A stretch of DNA of 36,568 nt, from contig CACGMG010000007.1 in NCBI GenBank assembly GCA_902574045.1, positions 1 to 36,568 of the forward strand. The letters are read 5' to 3'. Of the stretch, positions 4,294 through 14,132 are shown one piece after another. The position numbers and the translations under genes are program-made. The notes under the pieces are model-generated. The model was not told the DNA's origin. It worked only from the letters and a program-made list of their open reading frames with translations, and ran no database searches. This DNA is from an uncultured Pelagibacteraceae bacterium (GTDB lineage: Bacteria; Pseudomonadota; Alphaproteobacteria; Pelagibacterales; Pelagibacteraceae). The stretch's first letter is position 1; each line of letters begins with the position of its first letter.

Positions 4294-5281
4294 CAACATT
4301 ACAAAGATCTACGATTAAATTTTTAATTAACAGATCTTTACGTATTGATGAATTTGATTTTAAATTAATTTCAACATCAAAGGTTTTAATAAGAGCTTTT
4401 TGTAGCTTATTTTTATTCCATTTTTTTGATTGTGAAACAATCATAGGCTTGTCTTTCCAAAAGATTGGAGGTTTAAGTGATGGCATTATTAATTCAATAC
4501 TTAATTTTTTATCAGTTTTTAAATTTTCAATTTCATATAGTTTATTAATTCTCTGATTTATTAAATTTAAATAATAAACATTATTTTCCATCTCAAAAAC
4601 TGTATCAGCTAAAAGTTTATTGATTGTTACTTTATTACCATTCAAGGCTTCATCTTTGAGTCGATTAAAATCCTCATTTTCGCTTATATTTAGTATAGAT
4701 TCAATTTTACTCAAATCGATTTTTTTATCTTTAAAACAACTTTGTATTTTATCTATTTCATTATTTACCTTATTTCTATCTAGATTAGTATTTTGTAATA
4801 TTAAGTTCATTACTTGAGGGCTTAACCCGTTGTAGTCCTTTAGTCTTTTTTCTATTATTTTTCTTATTGAAATTTCATTGTCAGGGTAACACGCTGTAAT
4901 ACCTAGATGATTTGATTTTTCAAAATAAGATCTTATTTTTGATCTTTTATCTAAAGTACCCGAAAAAATATAAATTTTTTCATTATCTATTTTTTCAATT
5001 ATTTCCTCAATTATATTTAGAATTTTGTCATTTGCCTGTTCTATAAATATTATCTTATTTTTTTCAAACAAAGAATCGTTTAATACTTCATCAATAAGGA
5101 TATTCTTATTTTTTATTATTTCATCTTGATAATGTCTCAATATATCTAATTTAGGATTATTTTTTTTTATTATTTCCTTAAACTCTTTTTTAAGGCCCTC
5201 ATTCTCTCCATAAAATAAAAATATTTTATTTTTTAATAAGGGTGAAAAATCTTGTTCAATAATATAACTTTTATAGATCAT
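4280..5281 (-). CDS. holA: DNA polymerase III delta subunit HolA
   Basis: This is the clamp-loader subunit that opens the sliding clamp. The protein has 333 residues, close to family length. Its N-terminus (MIYKSYIIEQDFSPLLKNKI, then FLFYGENEGLKKEF) gives the FLFYGEN-type motif that corresponds to the degenerate P-loop region of delta. Further segments (KIYIFSGTLDKRSKIRSYFEK; helical C-terminal domain) fit the family, although the sequence is divergent and lysine-rich. The position directly after lptE and leuS is the common proteobacterial order leuS-lptE-holA, which supports the call. The start at 5281 falls 11 bases inside the out-of-frame extension of lptE, as expected for coupled genes. 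Confidence 0.88.
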   Translation of the reverse strand: MIYKSYIIEQDFSPLLKNKIFLFYGENEGLKKEFKEIIKKNNPKLDILRHYQDEIIKNKNILIDEVLNDSLFEKNKIIFIEQANDKILNIIEEIIEKIDNEKIYIFSGTLDKRSKIRSYFEKSNHLGITACYPDNEISIRKIIEKRLKDYNGLSPQVMNLILQNTNLDRNKVNNEIDKIQSCFKDKKIDLSKIESILNISENEDFNRLKDEALNGNKVTINKLLADTVFEMENNVYYLNLINQRINKLYEIENLKTDKKLSIELIMPSLKPPIFWKDKPMIVSQSKKWNKNKLQKALIKTFDVEINLKSNSSIRKDLLIKNLIVDLCNVANCP

Positions 5282-10673: not shown

Positions 10674-11324
10674 ATGAGCAATATAATTGAAAGATTAAAT
10701 AAAATAAAAGCTAATATTACAAAAGTAGATATCAATAACACAGCGAATATTGTTGCTGTTAGCAAAACTTTCCCTCTAGAACATGTCATGCCACTAGTAA
10801 ATTACGGTCATATTCATTTTGGAGAAAATAAAGTTCAAGAAGCTGATGCAAAATGGTCTGTTATTAAAAAGTCTCGAAAGAATCTCAGGCTTCACATGAT
10901 AGGTAAATTACAAACTAATAAATCAAAAAAAGCTGTTGAATTATTTGATTACATTCACTCAGTAGACAGTCAAAAGCTTGCTGATAATCTTTCAAAATTT
11001 CAAAGTGCAATCAAAAAATCAATCAACTATTTTATTCAAGTAAATATTGGTAACGAAACACAAAAATCGGGAATCCCTCTTAATGAGGTTGATGCTTTTT
11101 ACAATTATTGTGTGAAAGAAAAAAAAATGAATATTTTGGGCTTAATGATTATTCCTCCTAATGACGGTAAAGTAACTGAGTACTTCAAAAGTGTTTCGGA
11201 ACTAAATTCATCATTAGGTTTAAAGGAGCTAAGTATGGGGATGTCAGCAGATTACATCGAAGCTTTGAATTTCAAAGCAACTTACCTGCGTCTAGGCAGT
11301 GCTATTTTTGGGCAAAGAACCTAA
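10674..11324 (+). CDS. yggS: YggS family pyridoxal-phosphate homeostasis protein
   Basis: This cytoplasmic PLP-binding protein of the alanine-racemase-fold (PLPBP) family regulates vitamin B6 and amino-acid pools and has no known catalytic turnover. The protein has 216 residues. The PLP lysine lies in IVAVSKTFP (K31). The family motifs HFGENKVQEADAKW (about 48-61), LHMIGKLQTNKSK (about 73-85), IHSVDSQKLA and GLMIIPP, plus the C-terminal LSMGMSADYIEAL and LRLGSAIFG, are all present. The start at 10674 has AAAGG at a good distance before it (in the 5' end of the divergent gene). The final four bases overlap the convergent L,D-transpeptidase gene. Confidence 0.94.
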   Translation: MSNIIERLNKIKANITKVDINNTANIVAVSKTFPLEHVMPLVNYGHIHFGENKVQEADAKWSVIKKSRKNLRLHMIGKLQTNKSKKAVELFDYIHSVDSQKLADNLSKFQSAIKKSINYFIQVNIGNETQKSGIPLNEVDAFYNYCVKEKKMNILGLMIIPPNDGKVTEYFKSVSELNSSLGLKELSMGMSADYIEALNFKATYLRLGSAIFGQRT

Positions 11325-11812
11325 TTAATTTCAATTATTGTTTTTTTATTAATTTTTCTGATGATTTTTTTTAAATCTTTTTTATTTACAGCAATACATC
11401 CCTGAGTAGGTTTATATTTTTTTGTCGCTATGTGTATAAAAATAGCACTACCTTTATTTTTAACTATAGGATTTAAGTTATAGTTTATAACCAATATTAT
11501 ATCGTAAATATTTTTCTTTATATAAAGTTTTTCTGCACTAGGTATAAATGGAAATTTAATCAGTTTATTATAATATTTTGAATTAGGGTCGTCACACCAG
11601 CCCATATTTTTTCTTATAATGAACTTTGGTATTTTAGTGCTTATAGAGGAAATGCGGTCTTTCCTGTAAAGGATATATTTAACTTTAAATTTCCCTTTTG
11701 GTGTTATTCTATCACCCTCTTTTAATTTTTTTCCAATTCCCCTTTTACCAACAACACATTTTACTTTATAGTGGTCAACAATTAGGCACTTACTATTTAT
11801 ATATACATGCAT
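11321..11812 (-). CDS. YkuD-fold L,D-transpeptidase (COG3786-type), no signal peptide
   Basis: The catalytic domain is complete in 163 residues. GDRITPKGKF (33-42), MGWCDDPNSKYYN (70-82), SAEKLY and YDIILVINYN precede the active-site segment GSAIFIHIA...PTQGCIAV, with His127 and nucleophile Cys139. This is the short subfamily seen in alphaproteobacteria, where PTxGC replaces SHGC. L,D-transpeptidases make 3-3 peptidoglycan cross-links or attach proteins, but this one shows no signal peptide, so export or substrate is unclear. I chose ATG 11812; an upstream TTG at 11821 would add three residues. The chosen ATG overlaps the divergent regulator's ATG within the palindrome ATGCAT. Confidence 0.82.
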   Translation of the reverse strand: MHVYINSKCLIVDHYKVKCVVGKRGIGKKLKEGDRITPKGKFKVKYILYRKDRISSISTKIPKFIIRKNMGWCDDPNSKYYNKLIKFPFIPSAEKLYIKKNIYDIILVINYNLNPIVKNKGSAIFIHIATKKYKPTQGCIAVNKKDLKKIIRKINKKTIIEIN

Positions 11813-12439
11813 ACTATTCAAGTTTTAGCATTTGGATCAGAAAACTTTAACACTTCACTTGAAGAACTTAAAGATTATTTAAATTTTAAGTTAACAACTT
11901 CTAGTGATGATTTAAAAAATGTAAAAGTTGAAGAATATGACATTTTATTAATTCATGAGGATTATCTAACCAATTTAACAGAATTAAAAAAAGATCTTTT
12001 AAAAAAAACTCATAGATTAAAGATTTTAGCAACTCACTCTTTGAGTAACTCATCGAGTAATTTTTCAGAAAAATTACTTCTTCCTATTCATCTAAAAGAT
12101 TTTAGACAAATTATAGAAAATTCAGTGGTTAAAAAGAGTTTTAGTATAAACTCTTCAATAAAAATCAAAAGTTATATTCTAGATAAGAATGAAAAAAAGT
12201 TAATTAAAGATAAAAATTATATTTTATTAACAGAAAAAGAAATTCAACTATTAGAATTATTATTAAGAAATTCTACTCCTCTTAGTAAGAATAAAATTTT
12301 AGAAAATGTTTGGAAATATTCTTCAGATGCTGACACTCATACAGTTGAAACTCATATTTATAGATTAAGAAAAAAAATTAAAACAAATTTTTCAGATGAA
12401 AAATTTATTTTAAATGATCAGGATGGCTACATTTTGTGA
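11807..12439 (+). CDS. Winged-helix transcriptional regulator with a degenerate receiver domain
   Basis: The protein has 210 residues. Residues 120-210 form an OmpR/PhoB-type winged helix: LTEKEIQLLELLLRN (141-155), LSKNKILENVW (159-169), the recognition helix THTVETHIYRLRKKI (177-191) and the wing GYIL (207-210). Residues 1-105 follow the alternating pattern of a receiver domain, but the acidic pair after strand 1 is missing (IQVLAFGSEN), the phospho-acceptor Asp of DxxLLD is His50 (YDILLIH), and the conserved KP motif reads LLPI (91-94). Phosphorylation-independent control is therefore likely. No sensor kinase is adjacent. Its stop overlaps the start of the ArfA-like gene (GTGA), and it is divergent from the L,D-transpeptidase. 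Targets are unknown. Confidence 0.8.
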   Translation: MHTIQVLAFGSENFNTSLEELKDYLNFKLTTSSDDLKNVKVEEYDILLIHEDYLTNLTELKKDLLKKTHRLKILATHSLSNSSSNFSEKLLLPIHLKDFRQIIENSVVKKSFSINSSIKIKSYILDKNEKKLIKDKNYILLTEKEIQLLELLLRNSTPLSKNKILENVWKYSSDADTHTVETHIYRLRKKIKTNFSDEKFILNDQDGYIL

Positions 12440-12543
12440 AAAAGAGAAATAAATTTGCTCTTGAACTATTTACCAAAAAATACCGCAAAAGAGTTATTAA
12501 ACCAAAAAAAGGAAAAGGAAGTTTTAAAAGAAGAAAAAAATAA
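12436..12543 (+). CDS. arfA: ArfA-like alternative ribosome-rescue factor, 35 residues
   Basis: This small gene starts at GTG 12436, overlapping the regulator's TGA by four bases, and ends at TAA 12541-12543. The product (M)KKRNKFALELFTKKYRKRVI, then KPKKGKGSFKRRKK, matches the core of ArfA (DUF331). ArfA has an A-L-x-LF-x-x-RV helix that recruits RF2, followed by a basic KKGKGS(Y/F) tail that enters the empty mRNA channel of stalled ribosomes. E. coli ArfA is active when truncated to roughly this core. The coupling to the regulator argues for joint expression. It converges on the PfkB gene with one base between stops. The call rests on a short but specific motif. Confidence 0.75.
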   Translation: MKKRNKFALELFTKKYRKRVIKPKKGKGSFKRRKK

Positions 12544-12576
12544 ATTAATTCAATCTAGCACCAATTAATTGAATTA
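12529..12576 (-). terminator. Possible terminator of the PfkB gene, overlapping its last codons
   Basis: A nine-base inverted repeat (TAATTCAAT 12546-12554; ATTGAATTA 12568-12576) spans the final codons and stop of the PfkB gene. On the minus strand a T-rich tract follows (ATTTATTTTTTTCTTC). The stem is all AT but for one pair, so it is weak. On the plus strand the same hairpin directly follows the arfA stop. Confidence 0.35.
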
Positions 12577-13474
12577 CTTTTGAAGACATTTCTGTTCCAG
12601 ATTCTAAACTTTCTTTAATAGATTTATTATTAATTAAACCGTGTAAAAAACCACCTGCAAATAAATCCCCCGCACCAGTTAAATCTTTAATTTGAAGATT
12701 TTTTTTTGCAGAACATTCTACAATTTCATTCTTATTAATTGCAACTGCTCCTTTATCACCACGCGTAACTACTATTAACTTATTTATTTCTTTAGCAAAA
12801 TTTATTATGTCATCAAATTTTTTGGCATCAATTAATGAAATTATTTCTTGCTCATTCGCAAAAGTGATATCCAATTTAGTTTTTACTAATTCTAGGAAAT
12901 GAGGTTTATGTCTTTCTACACAGAATAGGTCTGATAACGACATTGCGACTTTATTAGAGTTATTTATTGCTTTTTCAAATGCTTTTTTAGGATCGCCTTC
13001 GTCCCATAGGTAACCTTCTAGGAATAGGATTTCACTATTTTTCACGGCATTTGTATCAATATCATTTTCATTAATTTTTCCTGCGGTACCAAGAAAAGTC
13101 ACCATGGTTCTTTCAGAATCAGGGGTAATTAATATTAGGCAAGTTCCGGTTGGAATTACCTCTTTTTTCTTTGAATAGAAGTATTGTACATTTTCTTTTT
13201 TTAAACCTTCTTCGTACTTATTACCTAAATCATCGTCACTTACTTTACCAATAAAGCCAACTTTATTTCCAAGTTGTGAAAGACCTACTATTGAGTTTGC
13301 AACTGATCCACCTGAGACAGTTTCTTCTATTTTAAGAGTAGATAATAGTTTTTTAAATTCAAACTCATCCACAAGCTTCATTGTACTTTTTGTTAAATTA
13401 TTTTGAGTAATAAATTTGTCTTCAACTTTACAAATTACGTCAACGATAGCGTTGCCAATTCCTAAGATTTTCAT
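12545..13474 (-). CDS. PfkB/ribokinase family kinase, adenosine kinase-like
   Basis: The 309-residue cytoplasmic kinase has the N-terminal GIGNAIVDV strand (5-13), the substrate-binding GGSVANSIVGLSQLG (55-69), and the PfkB second signature DLTGAGDLFAGGF (264-276) with the GAGD anion hole and catalytic Asp270. The overall pattern (VSGGSVANS; FLGTAGKIN; FANEQE) is that of the adenosine kinase/sugar kinase group common in alphaproteobacteria, so phosphorylation of adenosine or a similar nucleoside/sugar is the best guess. The exact substrate cannot be fixed from the sequence. It lies four bases after nth on the same strand and is probably the last gene of the dnaJ-to-pfkB transcript. Convergent arfA ends one base away. 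Confidence 0.85.
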   Translation of the reverse strand: MKILGIGNAIVDVICKVEDKFITQNNLTKSTMKLVDEFEFKKLLSTLKIEETVSGGSVANSIVGLSQLGNKVGFIGKVSDDDLGNKYEEGLKKENVQYFYSKKKEVIPTGTCLILITPDSERTMVTFLGTAGKINENDIDTNAVKNSEILFLEGYLWDEGDPKKAFEKAINNSNKVAMSLSDLFCVERHKPHFLELVKTKLDITFANEQEIISLIDAKKFDDIINFAKEINKLIVVTRGDKGAVAINKNEIVECSAKKNLQIKDLTGAGDLFAGGFLHGLINNKSIKESLESGTEMSSKVIQLIGARLN

Positions 13475-13478
13475 TTAA

Positions 13479-14132
13479 TTACGCTTTTTTTACTTTAATT
13501 GGTTTTTTTCTATTGGGATAACAGCTTTTACAAATTTTACAAGTTATTCCATAGCAATCTCGGGCCTTACAGTATTCCCTTCCATACCAAATTATTTGCA
13601 AATGTAGTCTGTTCCAATATTTTTTAGGAAAAATTTTCTTTAAATCCTCTTCTGTCTGAACAACGTTTTTTCCATTTGTTAAGCCCCATCTCTGAGCAAG
13701 TCTATGAATATGAGTGTCCACTGGAAAAGCAGGAAATCCAAATCCTTGAGACATCACAACGCTAGCCGTCTTGTGACCAACTCCAGGCAATCGTTCTAAC
13801 TCTTCGTAAGTTTTGGGCACCTTACCTTTGTATTCTTTAACTAAAGTTTTTGATAGATAGAATATACTTTTTGCTTTAACTCTAAATATCCCAATTCTTT
13901 TTATTAATCTTTCAATCTTTTTCCTACCAAGTTTAACGAAGTGTTTTGGTTTATTATATTTTGGATAAATATTTTTTGTAACATTATTTACATTTACATC
14001 AGTGCATTGAGCTGAGAGTAAAACAGAAACTAGTAATGTAAATATATTTCTGTAATTTAAAGGAATTGGGACCTTAGGATAAATCTTATTTAAGATCTTT
14101 AAAATAGTCTTAGATTTTTCTTTATTATTCAC
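13479..14132 (-). CDS. nth: Endonuclease III
   Basis: Nth is a bifunctional DNA glycosylase/AP lyase that removes oxidised pyrimidines. The protein has 217 residues. The family segment VSVLLSAQCTDVNVN is at about 35-49. The helix-hairpin-helix is LERLPGVGHKTASVV with catalytic Lys121, and PVDTH contains catalytic Asp139. The iron-sulfur loop is unusual. Canonical Nth has Cys at spacing 7-3-6, but here Cys are at 188, 193, 198, 201 and 204, so positions one, three and four of the canonical set are kept and the second is shifted. A lysine-rich tail follows. The gene overlaps dapB by four bases (ATGA), so it is part of the same operon. Confidence 0.94.
   Translation of the reverse strand: MNNKEKSKTILKILNKIYPKVPIPLNYRNIFTLLVSVLLSAQCTDVNVNNVTKNIYPKYNKPKHFVKLGRKKIERLIKRIGIFRVKAKSIFYLSKTLVKEYKGKVPKTYEELERLPGVGHKTASVVMSQGFGFPAFPVDTHIHRLAQRWGLTNGKNVVQTEEDLKKIFPKKYWNRLHLQIIWYGREYCKARDCYGITCKICKSCYPNRKKPIKVKKA

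Follow-up and report, generated by a model that had tools for sequence, protein, structure and literature searches.

The locus and its conservation

The window, by which we mean the whole 36,568-nucleotide stretch of Pelagibacteraceae DNA that was analysed, contains a very short gene between a regulator and a convergent sugar kinase. The features at this locus are:

11321-11821, minus strand: gene for a YkuD-type L,D-transpeptidase, which runs divergently from the regulator
11807-12439, plus strand: OmpR/PhoB-type winged-helix regulator of 210 amino acids (Trans_reg_C, E = 7.7e-17, residues 139-203 only)
12436-12439, plus strand: GTGA overlap, in which the regulator's stop codon is shared with the start codon of the arfA-like gene
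12436-12543, plus strand: arfA-like gene of 35 amino acids with a GTG start and a TAA stop (PF03889, E = 9.6e-6; dN/dS of 0.11 among relatives)
12448-12495, plus strand: N-terminal and middle part (N5 to V20), gapless against Asn14-Val29 of E. coli ArfA in the profile alignment
12505-12522, plus strand: KKGKGS motif, which corresponds to the part of E. coli ArfA in the mRNA channel (no variation among the 28 rows of alignment A1)
12545-13474, minus strand: convergent pfkB-family sugar kinase (PfkB, E = 5.4e-44), whose stop codon is 1 bp from that of the arfA-like gene

The product of ORF 12436-12543 (plus strand) is VKKRNKFALELFTKKYRKRVIKPKKGKGSFKRRKK. It is very short and lysine-rich, and five of its last six residues are basic. 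The initial annotation had described a GTG-started gene of 35 residues that overlaps the regulator by GTGA, and we found just this overlap with regulator ORF 11807-12439; the stretches LELF...RV and KPKKGKGSFKRRKK are both present in the translation. Among the matches listed, named Pelagibacteraceae relatives share up to 91% identity with the protein, and it is from these relatives that we take the window to be SAR11. When the genome it belongs to (722 kb, 66.9% complete) was searched in all six frames, the window locus was the sole match (E = 2.1e-5).

Relatives are found across the SAR11 family. PF03889, the Pfam family for ArfA, matches 237 of 297 family genomes at E ≤ 0.01, including 102 of the 127 high-quality ones, and exceeds its curated cut-off in 159 of the 297. 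Among 14 control genomes, only E. coli has a match. We also searched named genomes with the pattern PKKGKGS[FY], which gave at least 598 matches, of which at least 390 encode a relative; we retained 80 loci, all of them SAR11 by title. (The same pattern was used to pick 80 viral loci.) Because these loci were picked by the motif, the invariance of KKGKGS in the 80 named and 80 viral loci is no evidence of its conservation. Alignment A1 contains SAR11 proteins only (28 rows from 31 loci, leaving out two proteins that are identical to kept rows and one whose frame lacked a usual start codon), and KKGKGS is invariant in all 28 rows. The refuting outcome that the initial annotation had named, no conservation of the motif at this spot in relatives, is the opposite of what we saw.

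The gene's place is conserved as well. The initial annotation had suggested looking downstream of the same regulator in other SAR11 genomes, and the regulator lies in front of the gene at 79 of the 80 listed named loci. The convergent pfkB kinase lies behind it at 73 (both flank it at 72), and the exact 4-nt overlap with the upstream ORF is present at 73. At the loci from the PF03889 family search, both neighbors are present at 26 of the 30 listed, and the 4-nt overlap is found in 24 of 31 (the 30 listed plus the window's own). In one genus (L003, L005, L009, and L019), arfA lies behind a different ORF of 490 codons, with the 4-nt overlap and the sequence kept. The start codon varies (ATG in 32, TTG in 27, and GTG in 21 of the 80 listed named loci), and the protein is exactly 35 amino acids long in 46 of them and 36-43 amino acids long in the remainder.

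Pairwise comparisons gave a median dN/dS of 0.11 over 32 codons (1,089 pairs with a synonymous difference below 0.6). Since the loci were picked by their motif, we reran the selection test on the 20 codons that precede it, and dN/dS was 0.18 (1,038 pairs). The other two frames of the same DNA had dN/dS of 0.93 and 2.97 (3,083 and 2,299 pairs, with the same filter). Because dN/dS is low in frame as compared to the shifted frames, the coding sequence is under purifying selection: ORF 12436-12543 is a conserved gene under selection.

As for the neighbors, Pfam recognises no receiver domain in the first 138 residues of the regulator, which is probably an orphan whose receiver has degenerated. The regulator is far more variable than arfA, with the best pieces about 34-70% identical across the 79 listed named loci. 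A YkuD-type homologue is present at 25 of the 30 listed loci of the PF03889 family search.

Relationship to ArfA

The only Pfam family that matches the 35-residue protein is PF03889 (E = 9.6e-6). This match covers residues 16-35 only, and its score of 25.4 bits is 0.1 below the curated cut-off of 25.5. There was no match in NCBIfam. When the single sequence was compared to the PDB with phmmer, the only matches were to chains of E. coli ArfA, and these were weak (E = 0.021-0.051). With the profile of A1 the match was stronger: at E ≤ 10, it matches six distinct PDB sequences, all of them E. coli ArfA (E = 1.4e-7 to 3.8e-7), and the match is gapless across E. coli residues 13-44. Furthermore, all 28 rows of A1 match PF03889 and no further Pfam family at E ≤ 1. 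So the earlier claim that this ORF encodes the core of ArfA is supported by both the Pfam match and the gapless profile alignment, and across this functional core the protein is homologous to E. coli ArfA. And the search with the ArfA profile, which had been set as a refuting test, did find a match, though one slightly under the cut-off.

In E. coli ArfA, the basic end is described as lying in the empty mRNA channel, while residues 21-30 are said to occupy the A site, with RF2 on one side and the decoding centre on the other (PMC5378476). The segments in the mRNA channel and the A site are the conserved ones in the SAR11 proteins. In particular, the positions of Leu20, Phe25 (Tyr/Phe), Arg28 (Arg/Lys), and Val29 (Val/Ile) are kept in A1 but for one row, and the exception (of the L008 type) still has Lys/Ile. 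The equivalent of Ala18 is leucine in the window protein and lysine in 36 of the 80 listed relatives, and compared with E. coli ArfA, 9 residues are missing from the N-terminus; because of these two differences, RF2 activation could differ. At the other end, E. coli ArfA is reported to stay active when truncated down to Asn47, with shorter forms inactive (PMC5378476). The last residue of the window protein corresponds to Lys44. Thus, the proposal that it ends at the limit of activity of E. coli ArfA holds to within about three residues, but strictly the protein is three residues short of Asn47.

Overall, the SAR11 protein has in common with E. coli ArfA the gapless core, KKGKGS, the basic end, and a genome that also encodes RF2, tmRNA, and SmpB. 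It differs in being 35 instead of 72 amino acids long, with a shorter N-terminus, no hydrophobic tail, and no strong hairpin in the gene; also, the gene overlaps an upstream regulator by 4 nt and sits in Alphaproteobacteria. Among other factors with the same task, ArfB carries a catalytic GGQ domain of its own, whereas the window protein has 35 amino acids and no GGQ, and BrfA is described as a protein of unrelated sequence (PMC6881298).

A 2024 survey reports arfA in none of 2,376 Alphaproteobacteria (a total for the class, not a count for SAR11) and gives its range as Gammaproteobacteria, some Betaproteobacteria, and ten Bacillus species; its method is described as DNA-level profiles run against NCBI representative genomes (PMC11633108). 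DNA-level profiles from other phyla could miss such short AT-rich genes. A restriction of ArfA to beta- and gammaproteobacteria is also given in PMC8012679 and PMC6881298. In the literature we searched on ArfA or trans-translation in SAR11 or Alphaproteobacteria, we found no paper on a host ArfA in SAR11, so within these searches it is unreported. It is plausible that annotation misses a short gene without an ATG.

Control, rescue setting, and competing readings

The in-gene hairpin (an RNase III site) and the hydrophobic tail make up the E. coli type of control, and both are dispensable for the activity of ArfA. In E. coli, the stem-loop is reported to lead to a non-stop mRNA, and the hydrophobic end is unstable (PMC8012679). 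In the ORFs, the lowest fold of any 75 nt was -31.8 kcal/mol for E. coli, as compared to -13.6 to -2.6 (median -7.5) for the 80 SAR11 genes, although the AT-rich DNA of SAR11 accounts for part of this gap. The last 75 nt of the SAR11 ORFs, taken alone, had a median of -4.6. Relative to shuffles of the same composition, E. coli arfA had z = -3.5 and -4.4, while six SAR11 sequences, the window ORF and five of its relatives, each extended slightly beyond the stop codon, had z = -0.6 to 0.9. A scan of 11300-13600 found no terminator-like site, but this simple scan also missed the long hairpin of E. coli, giving three other sites there, so it is the folding comparison that carries the absence of the hairpin. 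The hydrophobic C-terminal tail is absent from the SAR11 protein as well. With E. coli as the positive control and no comparable fold in the SAR11 genes, we rejected E. coli-type hairpin control.

The elements for tmRNA-dependent control are thus missing, as the initial annotation had supposed, and E. coli-type tmRNA control of SAR11 arfA seems unlikely from the sequences. Because the gene lacks the hairpin and tail that tie E. coli ArfA to the failure of tmRNA, ArfA would probably be produced at a standing level; we infer that it may be constitutively usable. Its translation would be coupled to that of the upstream regulator through the 4-nt overlap. Within 12480-12600 we did see z = -1.9, with the end of arfA pairing with the end of the kinase gene, and a weak 3' structure that is common to these convergent genes is possible according to the folding model.

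The genome of the window has the partners that ArfA would need or back up. Its RF2 has the SPF motif and a switch loop with tryptophan (DIGWGHQ), it has a permuted tmRNA with the tag ANESYALAA, and it encodes SmpB. More broadly, alpha-tmRNA was found in 81 of 99 family genomes (38 of 40 high-quality ones), SmpB in 84 of 99 (39 of 40), and RF-1 domains in 98 of 99. Among the matches listed, there are at most two RF-1 domains per genome, except for one genome with three, one of which is in a shorter frame. The ArfB model gave weak matches, and it was over its cut-off in none of the 147 genomes of the order (and in two of the 14 control genomes). We also considered ArfB as the true backup, but rejected it on these counts, and the RF-1 domains fit RF1 and RF2. 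Since no ArfB was found in the order and tmRNA, SmpB, and RF2 are kept, ArfA looks like the only known backup of trans-translation that we found in these streamlined cells.

Could the protein be something other than ArfA? It might be a release-factor-dependent factor of the ArfT kind, with a similar channel-binding tail, that recruits both RF1 and RF2 and is not a true ArfA. Francisella ArfT is described as having 40 amino acids, a KGKGS-like stretch, and no E. coli ArfA-type control (PMC6299226), and the 80 listed SAR11 proteins, with 35-43 amino acids and no hairpin, are similar in these respects. However, the SAR11-only profile matches E. coli ArfA without a gap across 32 residues, while ArfT, which we compared by description only, is reported to use RF1 or RF2 and to be low in similarity to ArfA (PMC6299226). 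We consider this alternative improbable. Less probable still is a small basic protein with another job, such as an RNA-binding partner of the regulator, which would resemble ArfA in composition only. A very short lysine-rich protein beside one regulator in nearly all of the listed named loci would fit this, but the profile matches in Pfam and the PDB are specific to ArfA, and the four loci elsewhere in the genome keep the arfA sequence. A chance open frame behind the regulator would be short, could lack an ATG, and might yield a weak Pfam score like that of the window copy; but the conserved sequence, frame, place, and overlap, along with purifying selection, led us to reject this idea, to which we assign almost no weight.

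This leaves our preferred reading, with a probability of roughly 0.87: the 35-residue ORF would be a true minimal ArfA, the sole known backup found, which is probably made at a standing level and coupled to the regulator. Most likely, the SAR11 protein frees ribosomes that are stuck on broken messages. Several observations count against a minimal ArfA. The window copy is 0.1 bit under the Pfam cut-off, matches over residues 16-35 only, and is missed by NCBIfam; 60 of the 297 family genomes lack PF03889, and of the 25 of these that are of high quality, 10 lack a match to a wider profile too; given the residue at the Ala18 position and the shorter N-terminus, activation of RF2 could differ; and the protein ends three residues before the shortest active truncation of E. 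coli ArfA. ArfA in most SAR11-family genomes would revise the view of backups to trans-translation in bacteria, and it may explain how streamlined genomes cope when they have no ArfB. It would also be a natural minimal ArfA without the control circuit of E. coli.

KGKGS-less relatives and phage copies

In 10 of 13 pfkB loci, which came from 13 of 15 genomes without a PF03889 match, the regulator adjoins pfkB. Our first reading was that these SAR11 had simply lost arfA, but this was undone by a sister form that we found elsewhere. A mixed profile (A3) matches 23 of the 60 PF03889-negative family genomes, with 22 proteins that lack KGKGS and one KGKGS-type frame that is cut by the end of its contig. 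A3 also matches 11 of 12 genomes of the order's second family and 8 of 8 KGKGS carriers, with exactly one match in each of the 42 matching genomes. We read all of the 22 family and 11 second-family proteins, and none has KGKGS. Among the 25 high-quality PF03889-negative genomes, 15 carry the sister form, and in the other 10 we found neither.

An example of the sister form (from G005) is MKRNPIAKALRTPKFKKKVIKDKKKYNRKKVKKYF, which is right at the cut-off for DUF7230 (E = 4.8e-6, 27 of 27 bits). The sister's pattern is N-P-x-A-x-x-L...V...KK, followed by Y-x-RK. In the PDB, a profile of 19 KGKGS-less proteins (A4) matched nothing significantly except E. coli ArfA (E = 1.7e-5, with a three-residue gap at GKG); the remaining matches were two unrelated designed peptides (E = 4.5 and 5.7). 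A4 and A1 align with a probability of 97.8%, although A3 and A4 were partly built from the hits of earlier profiles, so these scores cannot count as wholly independent. Of the 19 A4 proteins, 16 score higher with the A1 profile than any of 3,800 shuffled sequences (at most 10.2 bits), and three do not. At E ≤ 1, 13 of the 19 match DUF7230, three match PF03889 (best E = 0.008), and two match DUF4322 weakly. DUF7230 (PF23876, of unknown function) is three residues shorter than the window protein, at the GKG of KGKGS, and it did not match the window protein in our Pfam search. On this evidence, the KGKGS-less sister is related to DUF7230, which suggests a function for that family; DUF7230 is not mentioned in the literature we searched.

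The tail of the second-family proteins is NKKK or NKKR instead of Y-x-RK, and because it differs further, their case is weaker. These proteins (L205-L209, L282, and L294-L303) have NPxAxxLRTxKF/KY... and a KK-rich end with neither KGKGS nor Y-x-RK, and their gene is a third, more diverged tail form. At L205-L209 and L282, the small gene follows an ORF that ends in FVTGQTxMVDGGSVLL (dehydrogenase-like by eye).

Across the class, matches to PF03889 occur in 10 of 385 genomes (SAR11 accounts for 3), to DUF7230 in 3 of 289, and to A3 in 27 of 289. Nine non-SAR11 and two SAR11 genomes among the 27 had supplied rows of A3 or identical proteins; the other 16 are new, and four of these (G371, G374, G417, and G580) are doubtful by eye. 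ArfA-like genes outside SAR11 appear to be real but sporadic at this sensitivity. Small ArfA/DUF7230-like proteins are scattered in other families of the class (L236, L237, L241, L244, L245, L247, L248, and L249).

In IMG/VR, at least 196 of at least 600 candidate stretches encode a relative. We retained 80 of these as IMG/VR lists them, so some might be host sequence, and we read the flanks of three. In one T4-like viral contig (L058), arfA lies among clamp-loader genes:

4036-4980 of L058: clamp loader, with 80% identity to the clamp loader of Pelagibacter phage Mosig
4989-5132 of L058: arfA
5287-5685 of L058: second clamp-loader subunit, followed by a translation repressor and DNA polymerase

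The L058 ArfA protein matches phrog_37108 and phrog_20887 of PHROGs, which are families without an assigned function. In another T4-like viral contig (L072), arfA (4992-5099) lies directly behind the same clamp-loader gene, by eye, and in the third stretch that we read (L106), a GroES-like gene precedes arfA. Mosig and HTVC008M do not share the position of arfA beside the clamp loader and have other annotated genes there.

Some phage relatives were already named or deposited. Among cultured pelagiphages, HTVC027P gp30 (KKGRGS) and HTVC034P gp63 (KKGKGS) were deposited as hypothetical proteins. HTVC027P gp30, which shares the ArfA core but has a longer N-terminus and KKGRGS instead of KKGKGS, has been called ArfA (PMC12753301), as has g10 of Citromicrobium phage RXM, whose likeness to ArfA we take from the published name only (PMC8953757). 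Some records from Brevundimonas phages also bear the name ArfA. A BLAST search of phages with a 35-residue SAR11 protein found nothing, probably because BLAST masks lysine-rich sequence, and a plasmid search that was also empty is uninformative for the same reason. With a longer protein from a phage contig as the query, the search gave 22 mostly weak records (E up to 10). PADLOC gave no match.

A broader reading, which we favor by a small margin over its being wrong, would join these observations. ArfA would belong, as a single branch, to a wider superfamily in which DUF7230 is also found, and would not be a late invention of beta- and gammaproteobacteria. Most genomes of the SAR11 order would have exactly one member, either with KGKGS or without it and with an altered mRNA-channel segment, which would replace the missing ArfB and would lack tmRNA-dependent control. 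The same factor would be found in phages of these and other Alphaproteobacteria, in some T4-like ones inside the clamp-loader operon.

Two-piece tmRNA is reported for phage Melnitz and, along with a riboswitch, for pelagiphage Mosig (PMC9004378). In Caulobacter phage Cr30 (L286), we noticed a frame at 1138-1302, between two annotated genes, with ...RNPIAKALRSSHLQPKIVKPRKGKGSFTRKGK; judging by this stretch, it is a putative phage ArfA that was also overlooked.
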